Of a DNA stretch of 37,119 bases, positions 19,887 through 36,318 are shown in pieces (position 1 is the stretch's first letter; each line of letters begins with the position of its first letter). This stretch comes from a virus, in the IMG/VR virus record IMGVR_UViG_3300027985_000256, positions 1 to 37,119 of that record. One strand, given 5' to 3'. The position numbers were made by a program, and so were the translations under genes. The notes under the pieces are model-generated. The model worked only from the letters and a program-made list of their open reading frames with translations. It did no database searches and was not told the DNA's origin.

Positions 19887-19926
19887 TAAAAATAACAAAA
19901 CAAATTGATATGTTGACATTATTTAG

Positions 19927-19958
19927 TTTGTTTCTAAATACCAGAATGCGTATATTTG
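19927..19958 (+). promoter_or_regulatory. Promoter P3 (first + island)
   Basis: TTTG (19927-19930), 20 bases, TATATTTG (19951-19958). The spacer begins TTTCTAAATA, the extended class shared with P1 and three minus promoters. It would drive the first island of small genes from 19980. Confidence 0.75.
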
Positions 19959-19979
19959 TATTAACAAAAGAAAATAATC

Positions 19980-20270
19980 ATGGAAAATAAGATAGTTGAA
20001 CTAGAAAAACAGATTATAATTTCAAAGAATGATAGAAAGCGTATCTTTAGACGTGCTCATTATTTGGTTAGAGAAATGTTTTGTTTTTCTCTTTCTCAGG
20101 CATTAAAACAATGTTGGAAAGAACTTAAAGAATATAATTTTAAATTAGAATGTGAGTTAATTAATGAAATAAATAAAATTAAATCACTTTATCGTTTAGA
20201 GTTACCAATCAACGAGCAATTGAATAGAGCTTTTTTGCGAGGTGAAAATGTTTATTGCGATGGGTATTGA
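19980..20270 (+). CDS. Hypothetical island protein (96 aa)
   Basis: A helical, charged 96-residue protein. The central segment RRAHYLVREMFCFSLSQALKQCWKELK recalls a short helix pair seen in many small phage and host proteins of Bacteroidetes, in which aromatic residues pack two helices; no function is known. It is the first gene after P3 on the + strand, opposite to the structural genes around it, and is followed by an attC-like inverted repeat. Confidence 0.65.
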   Translation: MENKIVELEKQIIISKNDRKRIFRRAHYLVREMFCFSLSQALKQCWKELKEYNFKLECELINEINKIKSLYRLELPINEQLNRAFLRGENVYCDGY

Positions 20271-20277
20271 TTGGGGG

Positions 20278-20367
20278 TAACTGTTTGTATATGGTCTGAA
20301 AGCCATAGTACGAACCCCGATTAAATGAACGAATATTAACATGGCTTTTTAACTATATACGTTGTTA
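20278..20367 (+). repeat. attC-like imperfect inverted repeat 1
   Basis: Nested stems TAAC/GTTA (20278-20281 with 20364-20367), GTATAT/ATATAC (20287-20292 with 20355-20360) and AAAGCCAT/ATGGCTTT (20299-20306 with 20341-20348), separated by unequal, unpaired bases. It fills the 119-base gap between two small genes. The form resembles an integron attC site; no T-run makes it a terminator. Confidence 0.5.
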
Positions 20368-20389
20368 TAAGCCGTTTTTACTTAAAATT

Positions 20390-20713
20390 ATGATACCAGA
20401 ATTAAATAAAGAATACGACTACTTTGATGATGGGAAGATAACCCCAAGTAGACACGATAAAGTTACAATAACGGAACTTGTGCGTTTTAACAAAATAGAT
20501 AAAGAAACTAAGGTTAATTGGTTAGAAGAAGTTGAGCAATGCCACTGGCTTTACAATAATGAAACAGATTATTTTGTTAAGGGGATACTTAAAGAAACAG
20601 AAGAAGATGTGATATTTGTGCGAACCTTAAATAACGGATGGTTTAGTTTAGGATGGTGGGCTGGGCGTTTAGATACAGATGGTAGTTTGATAGCACGATT
20701 AAATGGCTTATAA
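20390..20713 (+). CDS. Hypothetical island protein (107 aa)
   Basis: An acidic 107-residue protein, IPELNKEYDYFDDGK at the N-terminus and GWFSLGWWAGRLDTDGSL near 84-101. The NETDYFVKGIL and FVRTLNNGWFSLGWWAGRLD segments look like a family I have met as hypothetical proteins in Bacteroidetes mobile DNA; no function is known. Its stop codon TAA (20711-20713) lies inside the outer arm (TATAAC) of the following inverted repeat, as in integron cassettes. Confidence 0.65.
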   Translation: MIPELNKEYDYFDDGKITPSRHDKVTITELVRFNKIDKETKVNWLEEVEQCHWLYNNETDYFVKGILKETEEDVIFVRTLNNGWFSLGWWAGRLDTDGSLIARLNGL

Positions 20714-20826
20714 CGGGTGGCAATAAGAAACGTGCCAACACTAAATTTGAAAAAATGAGATAAATTAAATATTAACCACTCCGCTTATAAATAGCACGAC
20801 AGGCATGTTTTTTATTGCGTGTTATA
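20710..20826 (+). repeat. attC-like imperfect inverted repeat 2
   Basis: Outer arms TATAAC (20710-20715) and GTTATA (20821-20826), middle arms CAATAA (20721-20726) and TTATTG (20812-20817), inner ACGTGCC (20730-20736) and GGCATGT (20802-20808, one wobble pair). The left arm has three extra bases between outer and middle stems, giving bulges. The outer arm contains the stop codon of the preceding gene. Confidence 0.55.
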
Positions 20827-20858
20827 GTTAGTTTTTGAGCGGTGGTAAAATAAACAAT

Positions 20859-21014
20859 ATGAGTAATTTAAGAATAAACATTAGATTTTTACAGTACCAC
20901 TTACAGATAACAGATAATTGGAAAGTGAGCGTAACTTACAACGATTACCACAAAAACCTTGAACATGGTTGGTTTGATATATGTGAATGGCGACCCTTTA
21001 AGCGGGTGGGGTAA
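20859..21014 (+). CDS. Hypothetical island protein (51 aa)
   Basis: A 51-residue basic, aromatic-rich protein starting MSNLRINIRFLQYH and ending CEWRPFKRVG. The alternation of basic and aromatic residues suggests a small beta sheet. No family is recognised. It stands between repeat 2 and another gap with a partial repeat (GGTAGT/ACTACC near 21036-21078). Both gaps end in a similar TTTTTGAGCG element just before the next leader. Confidence 0.5.
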   Translation: MSNLRINIRFLQYHLQITDNWKVSVTYNDYHKNLEHGWFDICEWRPFKRVG

Positions 21015-21105
21015 TTAACTATAACGGGGAGTACATGGGTAGTGTGCTTTTCCTATAACCTACTAAACTACCTAAGAAGAACAAGTAAAATTAATTTTTG
21101 AGCGT

Positions 21106-21459
21106 ATGGAAACAATAAGCGAACCTAGACAAGTAAAAGCAAGAAAAGCCCATGTGTGTAACTGGTGCGGTTGCACTATACCAGTTGGAGAAACATACAA
21201 TACGGCTACTTATAAATATTATCAAGTGTACACATGGAAAAGCCACCTTAAATGCATGGACTTAGTGAACGCCTTGAACATGGAGGGTGATGAAGGTATA
21301 TCTACTGAAACATTTTACGAGTATGTAACAGAAGAGTTTAGCAATATTTGGCGTGAACTTGATGAAGAATTGTACGAAAGTAAAGACTTTGTGATACCTG
21401 ACTTTAAAGAGCAAGTGGCTTTTGTGTATGAAAAGCGGTGCGGTGGGAAGAAAAATTAA
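21106..21459 (+). CDS. Putative zinc-binding island protein (117 aa)
   Basis: A 117-residue acidic protein with CNWCGCTIP near 18-26, then GETYNTATYKYY and WKSHLKCMD near 45-53. The C-x2-C plus H-x2-C pattern is a likely treble-clef-type zinc site, as in small HNH-like or ribbon proteins, but no nuclease His-Asn pair is clear. The C-terminal half is acidic and helical. Similar hypothetical zinc proteins are known in Bacteroidetes mobile DNA. It has its own short gap on both sides. Confidence 0.65.
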   Translation: METISEPRQVKARKAHVCNWCGCTIPVGETYNTATYKYYQVYTWKSHLKCMDLVNALNMEGDEGISTETFYEYVTEEFSNIWRELDEELYESKDFVIPDFKEQVAFVYEKRCGGKKN

Positions 21460-21490
21460 TTTTACTCTTCCAATTTTGCACCTACGTAAT

Positions 21491-21559
21491 TTCGAAGAGC
21501 AAGCACATTACCTATGTACTGTGTTGTGCTTAACGAAGTGGCGTTTTAATGAAGCACAA
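21491..21559 (+). repeat. Three-arm inverted repeat 3
   Basis: Arm 2 (TTGTGCTT, 21524-21531) pairs perfectly with arm 3 (AAGCACAA, 21552-21559). A longer, broken pairing of arm 2 with arm 1 (21491-21507) is also possible through TTCG/CGAA, AGCA and CACA. The loop holds GCGTTTTAATG, nearly shared with the repeat at 26228-26283. Most of the 154-base gap is made of this element. Confidence 0.45.
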
Positions 21560-21613
21560 AGATTGTTGTATGGGCTGAACGCTTTTAATAATAACCACTA
21601 AAGATAATACGAG

Positions 21614-21988
21614 ATGAAAAGTAACGATAACCGTGCGTTGGCAGAACTTAATGAAAAGTTGCTTGAACGCAAAGAAGCAGAAAGAACAAAATATAAAATT
21701 GCTTTAAATGACAGAGACAGAAACTATGCACATGGAATGATGCTTGCTTATGGACAAGCTGCTGCAATGGTGCGTGAGCGTATGGCAGAATGTTCGGACG
21801 AGAACAGCGTTTTGCCTATACAACGTGTTAACGGCTGGCTTGATTTTCAAAGCAACAAAGAGCTATTTAACGAAGAGGCTAAAAAGAACTGCTTATGCAA
21901 GTTTGAAGATGGTACTGTAATTAGATATGATGAAGAGCACCCACTGGAAATAATGACACACTTTAAGTTAGCGGAAGCTTGCAGTTAA
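21614..21988 (+). CDS. Hypothetical island protein (124 aa)
   Basis: A 124-residue protein with a highly charged N-terminal helix (LAELNEKLLERKEAERTKYK), a motif YAHGMMLAYGQAAAMVRER near 38-56, and a C-terminal part CLCKFEDGTVIRYDEEHP. The order helix, Ala/Gly-rich helix, short sheet does not match a family I know. Its TAA stop lies in TTAACG, the same junction type as in other genes of the islands. Confidence 0.6.
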   Translation: MKSNDNRALAELNEKLLERKEAERTKYKIALNDRDRNYAHGMMLAYGQAAAMVRERMAECSDENSVLPIQRVNGWLDFQSNKELFNEEAKKNCLCKFEDGTVIRYDEEHPLEIMTHFKLAEACS

Positions 21989-22005
21989 CGATTGCATATA
22001 GTCAA

Positions 22006-22019
22006 TAGACAAATGTCTA
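22006..22019 (+). repeat. Palindrome TAGACA-AA-TGTCTA
   Basis: A 14-base perfect dyad with two centre bases. Two longer copies lie at 26298-26313 and 26379-26394, each near the end of a + strand island. It is suited to binding a dimeric protein. The function is unknown. Confidence 0.6.
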
Positions 22020-22035
22020 ATTAAACCATAACGTC

Positions 22036-22146
22036 ATGAATATAAACAATTTATACGATTTAACAAATAATCTTTCTAAAGATGAAATTAAATTGTTGCT
22101 AGACATATGTATAGATGAATTAGGCAATGTATGTTTTGAATGTTAA
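22036..22146 (+). CDS. Hypothetical island miniprotein (36 aa)
   Basis: A 36-residue acidic protein starting MNINNLYDLTNN and ending GNVCFEC. The SKDEIKLLLDICIDEL stretch predicts one amphipathic helix. It follows the palindrome at 22006. No family recognised; credible by composition but short. Confidence 0.45.
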   Translation: MNINNLYDLTNNLSKDEIKLLLDICIDELGNVCFEC

Positions 22147-22168
22147 TCGTTCCAGAATATACCAAATA

Positions 22169-22249
22169 ATGAACAATAATAACACGCTAAAAATAGGTAA
22201 TCATAAATTCTTAATGATTAATGAGTGTGTAAATAACACAGCTAAATAG
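22169..22249 (+). CDS. Possible 26-aa open frame at island end
   Basis: ATG at 22169 gives 26 residues (MNNNNTLKIGNHKFLM...) and the stop lies inside the terminator hairpin. Spacing fits the island, but the frame is very short and may be chance. Confidence 0.25.
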   Translation: MNNNNTLKIGNHKFLMINECVNNTAK

Positions 22250-24537: not shown

Positions 24538-24750
24538 ATGAAAACAAAATTTAATTATAACGGATTCGAATTAGAACTAAATTGGTATAGCGATAACGAT
24601 GATGACTCTTCAGGCTATAAAGGTCATGGTATTATTATTGAAGAGGTACATTTATTTGGTAAGGACATAACTAAACTTTTAGAACCTCAAATAAACCAAT
24701 TAACTTCTGAATTTGAAAAGTATTTAAATAGTCAAAACAAATCAATATGA
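24538..24750 (+). CDS. Hypothetical island protein (70 aa)
   Basis: A 70-residue acidic protein with a beta-type N-terminal half (FNYNGFELELNWYSDNDDDS) and a helical C-terminal half (ITKLLEPQINQLTSEFEKYL). The leader AACAATCAAAACGAAAAAAG is the A-rich type of this phage. Its TGA overlaps the ATG of the next gene. No family is recognised. Confidence 0.6.
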   Translation: MKTKFNYNGFELELNWYSDNDDDSSGYKGHGIIIEEVHLFGKDITKLLEPQINQLTSEFEKYLNSQNKSI

Positions 24751-24890
24751 AAAACTTCACTAAAGTAAAACAAGAAATCGAAGCTACTAAAAAGCAAATC
24801 ATTTCTGACTCAGAAAATATCGATAGATGTATTTCTGTTATCAAATCAAATGTTGAGAAAGTAAATGAAAGATTAACCAATAAAAAATAA
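24747..24890 (+). CDS. Hypothetical coiled-coil miniprotein (47 aa)
   Basis: A 47-residue charged helix (MKNFTKVKQEIEATKKQII... to ERLTNKK) with a heptad pattern, coupled to the previous gene by ATGA. It ends two bases before the next start. It may be a partner of one of its neighbours; no family is recognised. Confidence 0.55.
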   Translation: MKNFTKVKQEIEATKKQIISDSENIDRCISVIKSNVEKVNERLTNKK

Positions 24891-24892
24891 CC

Positions 24893-25102
24893 ATGGACGC
24901 ATTTGTATCAAAAGTAAGAAGCTTTAATAATAAGCTTCAAAAAGAAAGATGTTTAGAGTTAGGAGTTCCTTTTATTCCTATTTCCAATGACAAAATAAAT
25001 TTAATTGATGAAATCAATCATACTTTAACACTTGAGCAACTTGATAAAATAGGAGTTGTTAGTAATGTTAAGTATGATAATGGGAGGAAGGTTGTTTGCT
25101 AA
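24893..25102 (+). CDS. Hypothetical island protein (69 aa)
   Basis: A 69-residue protein, basic N-terminal helix (VSKVRSFNNKLQKERCLELG), a Pro-containing turn (VPFIPISNDK), then a helix (LTLEQLDKIGVV). No family recognised. Its TAA stop is within CTAACG, the start of an attC-like repeat. Confidence 0.55.
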   Translation: MDAFVSKVRSFNNKLQKERCLELGVPFIPISNDKINLIDEINHTLTLEQLDKIGVVSNVKYDNGRKVVC

Positions 25103-25143
25103 CGTTAAATATTTGTGCAGTTGGGGATTAGAAACCACTGCAC
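25100..25143 (+). repeat. attC-like inverted repeat 4
   Basis: GTGCAGT (25115-25121) pairs with ACTGCAC (25137-25143); the stem extends inward to GG/CC past a single bulged T at 25122. The preceding stop codon lies in CTAACG at its left edge. Short, but with the same bulged form as repeat 6. Confidence 0.4.
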
Positions 25144-25177
25144 CGTCAAAATAATAGAAACTTAATAAACATAGATT

Positions 25178-25534
25178 ATGAATGAATTAGCACTTAAACC
25201 CCAATTGCATAAACATAGTGTTAACAAGCGTTTTTATTTTCGTCAAGATGATGATACCTGTTACACTATTGAAAGTCACTTGCAATACATGATTGAAAAC
25301 CACATTGAAGAAATGGATATATTTCTCGCAAAACGTGAAACAGATAGTTGCTATTTCTTTTGTAAGCACTTTAACGAAGTTGGCGAAAAATCAGAAGGTG
25401 GTTGTGGCAAAATGTGTGAAGCATATAAACCACGTAACGGAAAATCAGGTGCATGTAAATTTATTGGTTATGTTTATGAGCAAACGGATAAGTGCTTTTC
25501 ACTAAAAGTTGATAGTGTCAAGTTTGATTCTTAA
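25178..25534 (+). CDS. Cys-rich island protein (118 aa)
   Basis: A 118-residue protein with eight cysteines, most in CYFFCKHFNE, GGCGKMCEAY and GACKFIGY (residues about 58-95), so probably metal-binding or disulfide-linked. The N-terminal 50 residues are basic and then acidic helical. I recognise no family. It is bounded by attC-like repeats on both sides, which makes it the cleanest cassette-like unit. Confidence 0.6.
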   Translation: MNELALKPQLHKHSVNKRFYFRQDDDTCYTIESHLQYMIENHIEEMDIFLAKRETDSCYFFCKHFNEVGEKSEGGCGKMCEAYKPRNGKSGACKFIGYVYEQTDKCFSLKVDSVKFDS

Positions 25535-25544
25535 ATACTTGTTA

Positions 25545-25597
25545 ACGTTTGTAATATGGTGTGTAGCGTGAATTACGCACTGAATTACATTAAACGT
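25545..25597 (+). repeat. attC-like inverted repeat 5
   Basis: Nested stems ACGTTT/AAACGT (25545-25550 with 25592-25597), TAAT/ATTA (25552-25555 with 25584-25587) and GCGT/ACGC (25566-25569 with 25575-25578), with unpaired bases between them. Left edge is GTTAACG, ten bases after the stop of the preceding gene. Confidence 0.55.
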
Positions 25598-25672
25598 ACT
25601 GCCGTAGTTTTAATATTTTTAGGGAGGGGGAATAATAAAAATACAAATATTATTAAAATAATTGCATTTTTA

Positions 25673-25704
25673 TTTGGTAAATACAAATATATGTCGTATA
25701 TTTA
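25673..25704 (+). promoter_or_regulatory. Promoter P5
   Basis: TTTG (25673-25676), 20 bases, TATATTTA (25697-25704), one base off the -7 consensus. It precedes a two-gene operon starting at 25743. Confidence 0.6.
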
Positions 25705-25742
25705 CATCGTAATTAAAAGCTAAACAAATAAAAAATACGATT

Positions 25743-25991
25743 ATGAAATCTAAAGTAACTAAAAAACAAATCATTGAAGCAACAGAAGTTAATAGCAATT
25801 ATTCAACTGGGTCAGTAAGATATTCATTTGAAACAGTAATTAACAATGTTAGGTTTATTAAGCCTTACACTTCTACAGTAATGAGTATTGAATATTGTGA
25901 TAAAGATGGTTATCCGATATGTGAAAATGTTCATGGAATAGATTATAAAAAAGACTTTATTCAAGAAGTATATAATTATCTTAACTCATAA
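25743..25991 (+). CDS. Hypothetical island protein (82 aa)
   Basis: An 82-residue protein, with a polar N-terminal helix (VTKKQIIEATEV), a beta-rich middle (SVRYSFETVINNVRF) and a C-terminal DYKKDFIQEVYNYLNS helix. Its TAA shares one base with the next ATG. No family recognised. Confidence 0.6.
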   Translation: MKSKVTKKQIIEATEVNSNYSTGSVRYSFETVINNVRFIKPYTSTVMSIEYCDKDGYPICENVHGIDYKKDFIQEVYNYLNS

Positions 25992-26203
25992 TGAAACGAA
26001 AAAACGTAATAATTTACATGACCCCAGTGCCTGAGTGCTGGGGTAACTTAAAACACTTCTGCGAAGCTAAGGGCATTTCTTACAATACTTTTAACAGAAA
26101 ACCTATGCCGTTTGAAGTGAATGGCTACAAAGTTCACAAAGTACCGTTCCTAACTGGTTTGATAAAACCAGAAGCGGGCGGGCAAAATATTAAAACGGAC
26201 TAA
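25991..26203 (+). CDS. Possible small DNA-binding protein (70 aa)
   Basis: A basic 70-residue protein. NLKHFCEAKGISYNTFNRK near 19-37 has the spacing of a helix-turn-helix, followed by FEVNGYKVHKVPF, which reads like a short wing. I recall similar winged small proteins in Bacteroidetes mobile DNA. A regulator of the island is a reasonable guess, not proven. It is translationally coupled to the preceding gene and followed by a bulged inverted repeat. Confidence 0.55.
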   Translation: MKRKNVIIYMTPVPECWGNLKHFCEAKGISYNTFNRKPMPFEVNGYKVHKVPFLTGLIKPEAGGQNIKTD

Positions 26204-26227
26204 ATGCACTACGCTTCATTAATTGTA

Positions 26228-26283
26228 CGAACAAGCTATACACTATATTACGTGTTAGCTTGTCGTTTTAATGCAAGCTAACG
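26228..26283 (+). repeat. Three-arm bulged inverted repeat 6
   Basis: CG-A-ACAAGCTA-T-ACAC (26228-26243) pairs with GTGTTAGCTTGTCG (26252-26265) in a 14-bp stem with two single extra bases (A26230 and T26239). The second arm also pairs with CAAGCTAAC (26274-26282) in a perfect 9-bp stem, so two structures exclude each other. The loop has CGTTTTAATG as in repeat 3. Single bulged bases on one arm are a hallmark of attC sites. Confidence 0.6.
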
Positions 26284-26297
26284 AGAGCATAGCGAGA

Positions 26298-26313
26298 CTA
26301 GACATTTGTCTAG
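26298..26313 (+). repeat. Palindrome CTAGACA-TT-TGTCTAG
   Basis: A 16-base perfect dyad, longer than the copy at 22006-22019. It lies in the non-coding stretch 26204-26390 between the second island and the tail-tip operon end. Confidence 0.65.
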
Positions 26314-26378
26314 TATTGCCAAAGGTTTTGATTTTATGCAATTTAAGTATATGATTTATTTAAGCAGATTTTTTCAAG

Positions 26379-26394
26379 CTAGACAAATGCCTAG
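26379..26394 (+). repeat. Near-perfect copy of the CTAGACA palindrome
   Basis: CTAGACAAATGCCTAG, one mismatch from the dyad at 26298, and it includes the stop codon of the tail-tip gene. On the minus strand it could also form a weak hairpin at the operon end. Confidence 0.5.
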
Positions 26395-28040
26395 AAAAAA
26401 TAATCCCCCGAACCATCAATAAAACCATCTCCAACGCCATCTGTCCAATAATTTAACGACGGTGGCGTTACTGGTGTTTTATCACTTACATAAATCAACT
26501 CCAAAGTAGTAGCCTGTTTTGACTTCTGAGGATTAAAACCACTAATCTTATTAAGAAAGTAAGAACCGTTTAACTCTTTAATCCAGTATAATCTGAAAAA
26601 TTCAAGGTTATTAATATCATTTAAAGTAAGCCATCTTTTTACCTCGTAGAATTTTGGATATTTAATAATACTATCCAATAAATTATACTCTCCATCAAGG
26701 CTATATATAGCAGTTTTTTGCAATCTGAAAGCTGTACTTTCTAACACTCCGCTTTCTAAATTGTAGATATTAATCGCATCGTCAGTAAGGCCATTATCAA
26801 GTAAGAAAACAAAAGTTTTGAAAGCTTCTTTGGGTGATAAATCCGGCACTATACCTCCATTTATTTGTAGAAACGATGGGATATAAGCATCTATATCAAA
26901 CAAATTAGTTGTAGCGTCTAAATTCTCATTATTGCAAATAAGAGTTTTACTACCCACTAAATCGTCAGCCTCTTCGTATTTCTCTTTAAACTTAATTACA
27001 TTCTCCTGAGCATAACCATCTATTGAGGGCTTGTATTTTGGAATACCTGTATATCTTCCTGACCAATTGACAACGTCTGCAAGTGTGGCCATATCATCAA
27101 ATCTAGCCAACCTTATGACACTATCGTCAAACTCATCTATAATAACGTTAAGATGTTGCAAGAATACATTTATAAAATCATATAGTTTTTTCCCTGCCTT
27201 ATCTTTCTGGTTCTTTAATGGCAAAAATTTTGAGTCCTGATTGTATTCAAAATAATAACCCGTAACAACTCCGGCAGTATATGAAAATCTTATACCAATA
27301 TCCCTAATTGGAATATACAAAGCTTTCGCTATAACATCATCCCATAAATTGCCATTCTTAACACCTCCGGAAGTAAGGAAGTTAACACCATATCTTTGCT
27401 CTATATATTCAAAAATAGTTTTGCAATACACAGAGAAGTGACCACCATCTGCCTTATCTCCTGATTCCGGCCAATAGCGCAAATAAATACTATTAAAATC
27501 CTCTACAAATGCAGAACCGTTATCAGGGTCGTAGTTGTATAAATTACTAAAGAAAAAAGAAAGTTTTATCCCTTCATTAGCTATTGAGTAAGGGTGCAAA
27601 AAGTCTGTAAAATTCCCGACAAATGGATTTTCTTTAGATGGCAAACTTTTTTCCTCTTGCATCCATTTAATAAAGTCAGTAACAAAATCAGGCCACAATA
27701 CTTTTTTTGTAGCCGTCCAAACGTCCTCTTTTTGAAATACAAATAAGCCGATCCTATCTTCAATGAAATCAACTCTTACTTTTGCTTTCGATATTAATTG
27801 TTCATTATCTACCCAATAATCAAGAATATTCTTTCCATATACCTTTGTTGATAATGATTGAGGATTATTAGCGTTGCCGAATATCTGCAAATTATTATAC
27901 GTTGCCGGGATGGTAAATGAGTTTGTGATGTTGACTTTTCTCGCTCCAGGATTTTTAACGTCGTAGCTTTGAAATGTAACACCGATAGCTGTCTTGTCGT
28001 CAAGATCAACTTTTAACCCATTTATCTTTAATAGCCTCAT
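26391..28040 (-). CDS. Tail-tip / baseplate hub-like protein
   Basis: A 549-residue protein. The N-terminus (INGLKVDLDD, then GARKVNITNSFTIPAT near 32-47) and the later DFINVFLQHLNVIIDE match the general look of large tail-tip proteins of Bacteroidetes phages, probably equivalent to the hub (gp27-like) that closes the tail tube. Its C-terminus is Gly/Asp-rich and aromatic (DGVGDGFIDGSGDYFF). It is the last gene of the tail operon and starts inside the previous stop (ATGA). No hydrolase motif is clear. Function inferred from place and size. Confidence 0.6.
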   Translation of the reverse strand: MRLLKINGLKVDLDDKTAIGVTFQSYDVKNPGARKVNITNSFTIPATYNNLQIFGNANNPQSLSTKVYGKNILDYWVDNEQLISKAKVRVDFIEDRIGLFVFQKEDVWTATKKVLWPDFVTDFIKWMQEEKSLPSKENPFVGNFTDFLHPYSIANEGIKLSFFFSNLYNYDPDNGSAFVEDFNSIYLRYWPESGDKADGGHFSVYCKTIFEYIEQRYGVNFLTSGGVKNGNLWDDVIAKALYIPIRDIGIRFSYTAGVVTGYYFEYNQDSKFLPLKNQKDKAGKKLYDFINVFLQHLNVIIDEFDDSVIRLARFDDMATLADVVNWSGRYTGIPKYKPSIDGYAQENVIKFKEKYEEADDLVGSKTLICNNENLDATTNLFDIDAYIPSFLQINGGIVPDLSPKEAFKTFVFLLDNGLTDDAINIYNLESGVLESTAFRLQKTAIYSLDGEYNLLDSIIKYPKFYEVKRWLTLNDINNLEFFRLYWIKELNGSYFLNKISGFNPQKSKQATTLELIYVSDKTPVTPPSLNYWTDGVGDGFIDGSGDYFF

Positions 28041-32041: not shown

Positions 32042-32072
32042 CAAATGTACCACAAACACTATTAAGAAACAA
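32042..32072 (-). promoter_or_regulatory. Extended promoter inside the accessory operon
   Basis: On the minus strand TTG (32072-32070), 20 bases beginning TTTCTTAATAGT, then TACATTTG (32049-32042). It belongs to the extended class of P1 and P3 and starts a transcript for the last three accessory genes. Confidence 0.75.
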
Positions 32073-32078
32073 TATAAA

Positions 32079-32342
32079 TTACTTACTCTTATGTGAATTT
32101 GGATATGTGTTTCCATAATGCTTTATGTAGTTATATATTTCGCTTAAATACATTTCTATAGGTGTTGAACACCTTTGCATGTGTGGTATTACCCTCCATA
32201 CAGTACCGCTGCCGTAATATTCCTCTATAACCCCATTAGTGTATTCTATTTTCATTACCTTATTTTCATAAGATGCTTCTTTTAAAAAACATTTATTTTT
32301 TTTAAAAGAAAATACCTTTTTAATAATATCTTTTATTTTCAT
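32079..32342 (-). CDS. KTSC-like small protein (87 aa)
   Basis: An 87-residue protein. After a basic N-terminal helix, residues 23-80 (ASYENKVMKIEYTNGVIEEYY, then GTVWRVIPHMQRCSTPIEMYLSEI) follow the plan of the KTSC domain: two beta strands with a G-x-x-Y-x-Y turn, then a helix. KTSC domains occur in phage and host proteins of uncertain nucleic-acid-related function. It lies directly before the promoter at 32042. Confidence 0.6.
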   Translation of the reverse strand: MKIKDIIKKVFSFKKNKCFLKEASYENKVMKIEYTNGVIEEYYGSGTVWRVIPHMQRCSTPIEMYLSEIYNYIKHYGNTYPNSHKSK

Positions 32343-34344: not shown

Positions 34345-34375
34345 CAAATATACAACCAAAACTATTTAGAAACAA
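34345..34375 (-). promoter_or_regulatory. Extended promoter of the accessory operon
   Basis: On the minus strand TTG (34375-34373), 20 bases beginning TTTCTAAATAGT, TATATTTG (34352-34345). It starts directly after the large terminase stop codon and gives a leader of about 20 bases. Confidence 0.8.
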
Positions 34376-34381
34376 TATAAA

Positions 34382-35530
34382 TTACCTCCTGCGACCCCCG
34401 CGAGTTGATACTGCGTTGCTTTTTGAAAATGGCTTAATCATAGTTTTTGCAATGTATCTTCCGGCATCAATACCATGGTTCCAATCGTCCATGGGCACTT
34501 CGCCTTTCTTATCAAGCCATAGCCAGTTGTTTAGTTCTTTTGATAGATTATAACTTTCGGGGTCTACAACAATATCATAACCTTGAAGTAGTTTAATATC
34601 ATCTACAATAGGAGATTTAGAAACGCCCCTGATATTTAACCCAAGCCCTCTTAAATCAAGTATCGTCCTCTTAGCTGAACTATCCGCAATAATCATTTTA
34701 CTACCTACACCACGGCTTAATATTGATTTTCCAAGTTGGCCTGTTGATAATCCATTTTGATATAATTCTTCTTTCCAGTATATAATTTTCAATCGGCTAT
34801 CAACAGCGCATTTGACTAAAGCATCCGGGTCTTTTACCCCGAAGTCAAGCCCATAACCAAAAGGTAATGTATTATCAAACTGACCAAATTCATAACTTAA
34901 AATCGCACCCTCTAATCTTCCAACTTCTCCAAGGCCGTACACCCTCCACCAGTTTTCATTATCTCTGCGGCTCTCAATCTGCTCAATAATAGATTCGTCC
35001 AGGTAATTATTATCCAGATAAGTTGATTTGATAAATACATGCTTTTCCTTTGGTATAACGTCGGTATGCACCCAAAACTCAGCAGTTGGGTTGAAGTCAA
35101 TAAATGTGCATAAACTTGTACGTATGCGCAGCTGTGTATATACATCGTAACTTAGATGGTTGCACTCATTCAAATATAAAATATCTCTCCTGGGACCATG
35201 GGCTTTGGCTGCATTATCTGCTCCAAAAAACTCAATCAAAGTTTTACCAATGGTGTAAATATGATCGGTTTTATTTTTGACTTCATCAATATTGACACCT
35301 TCACCTATCAGGATGTTTTCAAAGTCGCGCATTGCACCACATTTTAAATGAGGGAGTGTCTTTGATACTATTGATATTACAAGCCTCTTTTCGCTATACA
35401 AGGCTATTAAATAAAGCAATTGAAGCGTTGAGAAAGTCTTTGATGAACTAGTCCCTCCCTGGTTGATTATAAGCTTTGATTTAGCGTTATAAGCTTCGAT
35501 ATTTTTTGAGAATACATTTGTTGTTTTCAT
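34382..35530 (-). CDS. terL: Terminase large subunit
   Basis: A 382-residue terminase ATPase-nuclease. The Walker A form is GGTSSSKT (25-32), Walker B ILYLNECNH near 116-124, followed by the coupling motif FIDFNPTAEFW near 142-152. The RNase H-like nuclease shows GLDFGVKDPDA near 223-233 (first Asp), MIIADSSA near 273-280 and DWNHGIDAGRY near 355-365. It packages DNA with the small subunit gene upstream. It is on the short side for the family but complete in motifs. Its ATG follows a strong terminator by six bases, so expression probably depends on readthrough. Confidence 0.92.
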   Translation of the reverse strand: MKTTNVFSKNIEAYNAKSKLIINQGGTSSSKTFSTLQLLYLIALYSEKRLVISIVSKTLPHLKCGAMRDFENILIGEGVNIDEVKNKTDHIYTIGKTLIEFFGADNAAKAHGPRRDILYLNECNHLSYDVYTQLRIRTSLCTFIDFNPTAEFWVHTDVIPKEKHVFIKSTYLDNNYLDESIIEQIESRRDNENWWRVYGLGEVGRLEGAILSYEFGQFDNTLPFGYGLDFGVKDPDALVKCAVDSRLKIIYWKEELYQNGLSTGQLGKSILSRGVGSKMIIADSSAKRTILDLRGLGLNIRGVSKSPIVDDIKLLQGYDIVVDPESYNLSKELNNWLWLDKKGEVPMDDWNHGIDAGRYIAKTMIKPFSKSNAVSTRGGRRR

Positions 35531-35536
35531 ATTAAT

Positions 35537-35564
35537 AAAAAAAGCGAGATAATAATCTCGCTTT
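35537..35564 (-). terminator. Strong terminator just before terL
   Basis: On the minus strand AAAGCGAGAT, TATT loop, ATCTCGCTTT (10 bp perfect) and seven T in a row, ending six bases before the terL ATG. A complete intrinsic terminator inside the packaging operon. Confidence 0.88.
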
Positions 35565-35590
35565 AAAGTTAATGAAAAATATTTTAATTA

Positions 35591-35886
<296 letters not shown>

Positions 35887-35899
<13 letters not shown>

Positions 35900-36243
35900 A
35901 CCTTAACAGAATTTAATGATTTAACTGCCTTTTCTGTCATTTGAATGATTTCAATTGCAACTAAATCAATTGAATTAACAGCCATTGGAAATTTGCATCC
36001 GTCTGGATTAGAAGTTCCTTCCTGTGATAATTGAGATAAAGAAGCCGCTCCTGACCATTGCCAAACTCTACGAGCATTTAATATTGTAACTTCCATTCCT
36101 GCAAGAGTCGATTCTTTACGATCTAAAATACCATAGAATACACCAGCTGAATAGGTACGTATCATAACCATTGGCTTATCGCCCGAAACTGACATTAATT
36201 CTTTCTTAATGTAAGTTTCTCCGTTGATTTGAATTTCATTCAT
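35887..36243 (-). CDS. DUF6948-like phage protein
   Basis: A 118-residue protein with VMIRTYSAGVFYGIL near 26-40, ARRVWQWSGAASLSQLS near 57-73, and KFPMAVNSIDL near 84-94. This matches a widespread phage family that I know as DUF6948 (name from memory), usually near terminase or structural genes. The order strand, WSGAASLS turn, strand suggests a compact beta fold. It is the first gene after its own extended promoter and is coupled to the Gly-X repeat gene. The function is unknown. Confidence 0.72.
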
Positions 36244-36272: not shown

Positions 36273-36303
36273 CAAATTTAATCATAAAACTATTTAGAAA
36301 CAA
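36273..36303 (-). promoter_or_regulatory. Extended promoter of the DUF6948-like / Gly-X genes
   Basis: On the minus strand TTG (36303-36301), 20 bases beginning TTTCTAAATAGT, TAAATTTG (36280-36273). Same class as P1, P3 and the two accessory promoters. Confidence 0.78.
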
Positions 36304-36318
36304 TATAAATTAAGTTAC

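Follow-up and report, generated by a model that had tools for sequence, protein, structure and literature searches.

The window analysed here, a 37,119-base virus record (IMGVR_UViG_3300027985_000256) taken at its full length, belongs to a tailed phage of the Bacteroidota type whose predicted proteins include a BT4734-like_N protein, a portal, a ClpP-type protease, a tape measure and a terminase; its host group is presumably the Bacteroidota. The structural genes, which lie on the minus strand, are broken up at 19980-22249 and 24538-26203 by two islands of small ORFs on the plus strand. Two hairpin-bearing gaps are associated with these islands: site A lies within the first and site B at the 3' end of the second, downstream of which there is no plus-strand gene as far as the convergent gene 26391-28040. 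The DNA of 26000-26420 had no match among named phages, and close relatives of the tape-measure protein, sought for an empty-site comparison, were not found. Several other repeats were observed in the window. A TAGACAAATGTCTA-like palindrome occurs near the 3' end of both islands (22004-22020, 26298-26316 and 26379-26394), and T and A runs border its copy at 26379-26394, which resembles a two-way terminator. A dispersed repeat, TTTATATTGTTTCT...GCGTATATTTG together with its complement, stands beside genes at 265-320, 19919-19974, 32042-32087, 34345-34390 and 36273-36318 and probably represents a family of phage promoters carrying the TAnnTTTG box of Bacteroidota. A tandem repeat with a 12-base period (21 registers) occupies 35545-35928.

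The earlier note on this DNA had described site B (26228-26283) as a three-arm repeat whose middle arm can pair with either neighbor, and had pointed to the same plan at site A. The three arms and the CGTTTTAATG loop, the perfect 9-bp pairing of the middle and right arms, and the corresponding plan of site A are all present as described (Table 1). Both pairings of the middle arm are also physically possible in site B, since it can pair with 26231-26245, with bulges, and this left/middle pairing is what minimum-energy folding of the 56-71-nt stretch predicts for both strands, as RNA or as DNA. The element reaches well past these 56 nucleotides, as the left segment has its true partner in an L'' arm that comes directly after the R'' of the preceding unit. 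Sites A and B are alike in carrying one or more genes between L'' and L' while the R loop is vacant; no Pfam family was found for the two ORFs in the site B unit at E 0.1. In site A the AAC of R'' has decayed to AAA, and the element also occurs in three other loci (L022, L047 and L101). The window arrays extend over 20278-21560 and about 25100-26283.

Table 1. Units, arms and ORFs of the two arrays in the window (position 1 is the first base of the window).
Feature	Position	Strand	Remarks
Complete mobile unit	20278-20714	+	L''/L' hairpin region; R' 20364-20373; ORF 20390-20713 (107 aa); R'' 20705-20714
attC-like site between units	20719-20818	+	L'' 20719-20736; L' 20802-20818
Second unit	20821-21026	+	R' GTTATAGTTA 20821-20830; ORF 20835-21014 (59 aa, TTG start); R'' TAACTATAAC 21016-21025
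L'' arm of site A, GAGTACATGGGTAGTGTGC	21029-21047	+	
ORF (117 aa) in L''-L' loop of site A	21106-21459	+	phrog_7314
Site A	21503-21559	+	L' about 21503-21522; R' GTTGTGCTT 21523-21531; loop AACGAAGTGGCGTTTTAATG; R'' AAGCACAA 21552-21559
Cassette ORF (118 aa)	25178-25534	+	start between L'' and L' arms read by eye, near 25105-25120 and 25199-25217
R'' arm + G, ACTTGTTAACG	25537-25547	+	end of the unit before that of site B; its R' GTTAACAAGC at 25220-25229, within ORF 25178-25534
L'' arm of site B unit, TTGTAATATGGTGTGTAGC	25549-25567	+	pairs with L' across ~690 nt; G opposite T at two positions; score 15.8
Two small ORFs in L''-L' loop of site B unit	25743-25991, 25991-26203	+	82 aa and 70 aa
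L' arm of site B unit, GCTATACACTATATTAC	26235-26251	+	overlapped by the left arm of the earlier note
Site B, vacant R'-R'' unit	26254-26283	+	family pattern; DNA fold of hairpin, z -3.95
R' (middle arm) of site B, GTTAGCTTG	26254-26262	+	9 bp perfect pairing with R''
Loop of site B, TCGTTTTAATG	26263-26273	+	
R'' (right arm) of site B, CAAGCTAAC	26274-26282	+	followed by G 26283

Site B belongs to a family of hairpins in viral DNA. A first, loose search pattern returned mostly chance matches, about nine of those listed having the full form by eye along with a few looser relatives; the common form behind them is GTTnnnnnn-TCGTTTTAATG-nnnnnnAAC. The family pattern fixes only GTT, the loop and AAC and leaves six positions per arm free. 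It is present in at least 120 stretches of viral DNA, whereas a 257-Gb collection of cellular genomes, searched with an additional fixed base, has it in only 18. All six free positions pair in 98 of the 123 listed viral matches (5/6 in 21, 4/6 in one and 2/6 in three) and in 7 of the 18 cellular ones. The stem sequences differ widely among these matches and yet pair, so the arms of the middle/right hairpin are variable and complementary. The proposal that an architecture shared by two gaps without overall identity is selected is upheld. The loop was fixed in the search, so its conservation is not readable from the 123-match set; similarly, a stem figure of 169/209 is biased because those loci were chosen by their loop. 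In the unbiased set of 77 loci, which were fetched by their recombinase, TCGTTTTAATG is the commonest loop among perfect hairpins of at least 8 bp (17 of 287; the next commonest has 4). Additionally, an attC-like 31-mer, TAACGTCCGATGATAAACAATCGTTTTAATG, was observed to be exactly identical in 95 viral stretches, on contigs of up to 464 kb, which suggests recent spread or strong constraint; its core has 69 distinct contexts. Rfam searches gave no match at the gathering score in the window and, in five array loci, one weak match (mir-50, E 0.55) below that score, which was treated as chance.

The left/middle pairing behaves differently. In a set of 114 distinct elements, the longest upstream match of the middle arm has a mean of 4.18, compared with 4.10 (sd 0.07) when the arms are shuffled among the elements, and matches of at least six were found in 10 elements against 8.8 expected. 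Covariation over the family, the check suggested in the earlier note, is thus divided: compensatory change is evident in the middle/right pairing, and none above the shuffled level in the left/middle one. The lack of compensatory change that the note had named as refuting its reading therefore holds for the left/middle pairing. Because this pairing does no better than shuffled arms, the idea of mutually exclusive hairpins, or a switch, is unsupported and was rejected.

The arms make sense when entire arrays are considered, in which two inverted repeats alternate: L''...L' and R'...R'' (GTTx7...x7AAC, then G). The unit form is a hairpin followed by GTTx7-gene-x7AAC, and in loci L231, L208, L194 and L220 each small ORF lies between GTTx7 and x7AAC, then G. 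Ten-base inverted repeats beginning with GTT and spaced 80-900 nt apart occur at 119.5 per 10,000, against 15-44 for the 13 other trinucleotides shown; they drop at 11 bases, with a G after the repeat in 149 and a C before it in 25. The cassette arms read GTTATnnnnnGTT and AATTnnnnnATAAC-G with a G opposite T at one fixed position, which explains the ten-base limit; the fixed G opposite T is seen in R' and in L''. With exact 9-base arms and an ORF of at least 35 aa covering at least 60% of the interval as the criteria, 430 R-loop gene cassettes (median 269.5 bp) were identified in 159 of the 308 loci, and between cassettes lies an attC-like site of the form AACG-nnnn-L''...L'-nn-GTT. An embedded promoter was considered, as L' arms are often TATA, and dropped, the TAnnTTTG box being present in only 17 of 430 sites.

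Genes may occupy either loop. An L'' partner scoring at least 13 lies upstream of most vacant elements and rarely in the downstream control, and an AACG-anchored L'' was found for 64 of 113 distinct vacant-R elements, the other 49 being without one. Where the L interval is at least 160 nt (54 vacant-R elements), it holds a same-strand ORF in 51 and an opposite-strand ORF in 7. Conversely, R'' could be located for 14 of 35 vacant-L elements, 13 of these with an ORF (3 on the opposite strand), while 21 had no R'' within reach. In many elements, the gene-free loop is closed by TCGTTTTAATG. As to the cargo, most of 130 sampled cassette proteins (from L453-L529 and L194) have no Pfam family, and DNA methyltransferases are the commonest recognized type, with 7 matches over 4 Pfam families that may overlap. 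In the minus-strand array of L231, some cassette ORFs begin within the attC-like site, which then supplies the coding sequence of the protein N-terminus (LNISDVSES-like).

The ends of DNA blocks shared between the 308 loci were compared with the array motifs. TAACG marks 90 of 279 left ends (expected 3.0) and 31 of 344 right ends (expected 3.9). GTTA, by comparison, departs little from chance at left ends (20 against 14.1) and shows a moderate excess at right ends (50 against 19.8); TGTTA is raised at both (11 against 2.2 and 19 against 3.2), as is the control word ATTGC at left ends (9 against 2.1). Among 121 blocks of at least 140 bp and at least 90% identity with both flanks different, 38 run from AACG to AACG, none from GTT to GTT and 27 have neither motif; these breakpoint counts include related locus pairs. 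The window itself offers an example: its unit 20278-20714 matches that of an unrelated phage (L288/L556) at 92% over 437 bp, exactly from TAAC to TAAC. No match to the other window DNA or to 14 other window proteins was found in 20 kb of that contig, nor the window tape-measure protein in the whole record. Sequence comparison points firmly to an exchange of units with breakpoints at TAAC|G.

Array-bearing records frequently encode a tyrosine recombinase of ~267 aa directly 3' of the array and on the same strand, in contigs up to jumbo size. A profile search of viral contigs yielded 198 relatives, of which 80 were kept. The attI-like motif TAAC-TATnATATAT, or a looser variant, precedes the gene in 52 of 60 distinct loci that have upstream sequence, against 6.1% of random control windows, mostly 46, 47, 55 or 56 nt ahead of the start, a few of the 52 matches being weak and at other distances (e.g., L471, L473, L486 and L528); the motif is absent from eight loci. 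In the related phages, the sequence shows the array running up to this attI-like end, just ahead of the same-strand recombinase. Same-strand cassettes number 198 in the 194 kb upstream of the recombinase and 7 in the 229 kb downstream, and 53 of the 60 loci have at least one upstream; on the opposite strand there are 41 upstream and 1 downstream, figures that are not independent, since inverted repeats read alike on both strands. The enzyme comprises PF13495 and PF00589 with the conserved R..HxxR..GH..Y residues. Its best family match is NF040815, and it falls below the cut-offs of both NF040815 and TIGR02249 (for the latter, 101.7-164.5 bits in four proteins against a cut-off of 265, with none of 32 viral records above it); the nearest PDB entries by sequence are the XerA-like 4a8e and IntI4 (2a3v). 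PF00589 occurs in 11 of 46 array-bearing records and in none of the other 35, many of which are fragments; the window record is likewise without it. A serine recombinase as the mover was rejected, as one is present in only 1 of 32 records.

Taken together, these observations make it very probable that the hairpin of site B bounds a gene cassette on its 3' side in an integron-like array of a Bacteroidota-type phage, and that site A is likewise a vacant boundary hairpin of such an array. Recombination was one of the two roles that the earlier note had considered, and it is upheld as a candidate, as the elements bound shuffled gene cassettes and, in relatives, adjoin a recombinase. The cassette system of these phages probably works like an integron. 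The recombinase would act on one folded strand of the cassette sites, would cut at TAA|C of R'' and would join units to one another or to the attI-like site. A folded circular unit may form a dumbbell with one stem, made of the R and L arms, and two loops, either of which could carry the gene while TCGTTTTAATG closes its counterpart. The window arrays would be orphan segments; with no recombinase on the 37-kb record, they would need one in trans or from a missing part of the genome.

Other explanations of the hairpins have to be considered. Were they RNA switches, the middle arm would alternate between the left and right arms and control translation or termination, which is compatible with the two folds possible in site B; however, the shuffled-level left/middle pairing, the lack of a plus-strand gene before the convergent one downstream and the absence of an Rfam match make this very unlikely. 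A transcription terminator or mRNA-end hairpin between small genes appears just as improbable: site B does lie 3' of small ORFs and forms a stable hairpin with TTTT in its loop, but no T-run follows the stem, complementary copies of the arms lie on the other side of the same gene, which a terminator would not need, and blocks recombine at these hairpins.

Two further readings accept exchange at the hairpins and dispense with the array-adjoining recombinase. Plain homology islands, as in T4-like phages, would allow general phage recombination to shuffle genes without a dedicated enzyme, and the 31-mer core shared by 95 stretches is what such islands would provide. They predict breakpoints on both sides of the hairpin cores, whereas the observed ends concentrate at TAACG; they also leave the attI-like site at fixed distances before the recombinase unexplained, and the scarcity of the TAnnTTTG box speaks against the T4 type, so that we regard them as quite unlikely. 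Alternatively, ordinary cassettes may have been captured from host integrons by the host IntI (in the sense of CALINs), the phage recombinase being unrelated. The sites of Polaribacter phage P12002L have the same layout, and the available part of Qi et al. 2023 (PMC9892861) reports that one P12002L attC site recombines with IntI1, of two sites tested. Nevertheless, the rarity of the pattern in cellular genomes relative to viral stretches, a breakpoint side opposite to that of IntI and an attI-like site adjoining the phage recombinase render host capture unlikely.

The phage arrays resemble class 1 and sedentary chromosomal integrons in consisting of small one-gene cassettes with R''/L''/L'/R' sites based on AAC and GTT, that is, attC-type inverted repeats, and in having, in relatives, a tyrosine recombinase with an adjoining attI-like site. 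They differ in their 10-13-bp R arms, in the genes possible in the L''-L' loop, in the conserved vacant loop and in the orientation of the cassette genes, which point toward the recombinase. In classical integrons the bottom strand recombines between C and A of the R' box, a choice of strand that ensures expression of the captured gene, as stated in the accessible text of PMC2727003. While integron exchange occurs at G|TT of R', with attC travelling with the upstream gene, the phage arrays break at AAC|G of R''; the exchange side (TAA|C of R'') mirrors the classical one, and the hairpin travels with the gene downstream of it. Extrahelical bases choose the recombining strand in integrons; what the phage arms have is the fixed G opposite T in R' and L''. 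Furthermore, the IntI-specific insertion is absent from the phage enzyme, in which 84 residues separate the box-I R from HxxR in 71 of 76 proteins, against 132 in an alignment with IntI4. Because these two defining features of integrons, the G|TT crossover and the additional domain, were not found, the system is not filed as an IntI integron.

Longer cellular relatives of the recombinase occur in Bacteroidota (109 of 395 genomes at E 1e-40 or better). In six regions the arrays lie on the opposite side, starting with GTT 3' of the recombinase; same-strand calls number 7, 9, 6, 8, 2 and 8 against 0, 0, 0, 0, 0 and 1 when reversed, a few of the calls being spurious and overlapping the recombinase or each other. 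These chromosomal integron-like arrays (L550-L555, from G141, G200, G341, G224, G087 and G425) stand directly downstream of frames that are mostly 290-410 aa, and several have attC-like spacers of roughly 118 nt. According to the available portion of the IntegronFinder 2.0 report, Bacteroidetes earlier had only In0 elements, with one complete integron in Salinibacter.

Xer-dif modules are gene modules between recombinase sites, with dif sites of 28 bp; the phage recombinase shares the family of XerA and XerCD, as the NF040815 match suggests, but its sites form hairpin-rich arrays with an attI-like end rather than 28-bp dif sites. T4-type phages have promoter-early-stem-loop cassettes, with hairpins between small genes and module exchange at them; the present arrays lack the TAnnTTTG promoter box and have fixed breakpoints and a linked recombinase. 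Attachment-site clusters in phages have been described before: screening 10,705 genomes with IntegronFinder and HattCI, Qi et al. 2023 (PMC9892861) report 17 CALINs, 3 complete integrons and one In0, the phage CALINs including P12002L. The part of that report available describes no phage recombinase or attI-like site of the present type, no genes in either loop and no vacant loop, and the titles and abstract beginnings retrieved from open-licence literature describe no phage platform of this kind. The chances appear evenly balanced that these arrays constitute a gene-capture platform distinct from IntI integrons, with a short Xer-like recombinase without the IntI insertion, dumbbell cassettes carrying the gene in either loop, an opposite polarity (the site 5' of the gene, and genes facing the recombinase), a spread through Bacteroidota jumbo phages and a chromosomal sister system in Bacteroidota.

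Several consequences would follow. What appeared to be an RNA switch becomes a map of cassette borders, and the array signature can be used to find further such arrays. An additional domain has been reported to be necessary for IntI activity; an integron-like phage enzyme that does without it makes this requirement directly testable. Integron-like gene shuffling appears widespread in related, often giant, viruses and, if the proposed system is confirmed, would account for the way in which many large phages of Bacteroidota, as yet uncultured, acquire and rearrange tiny accessory genes by the dozen.
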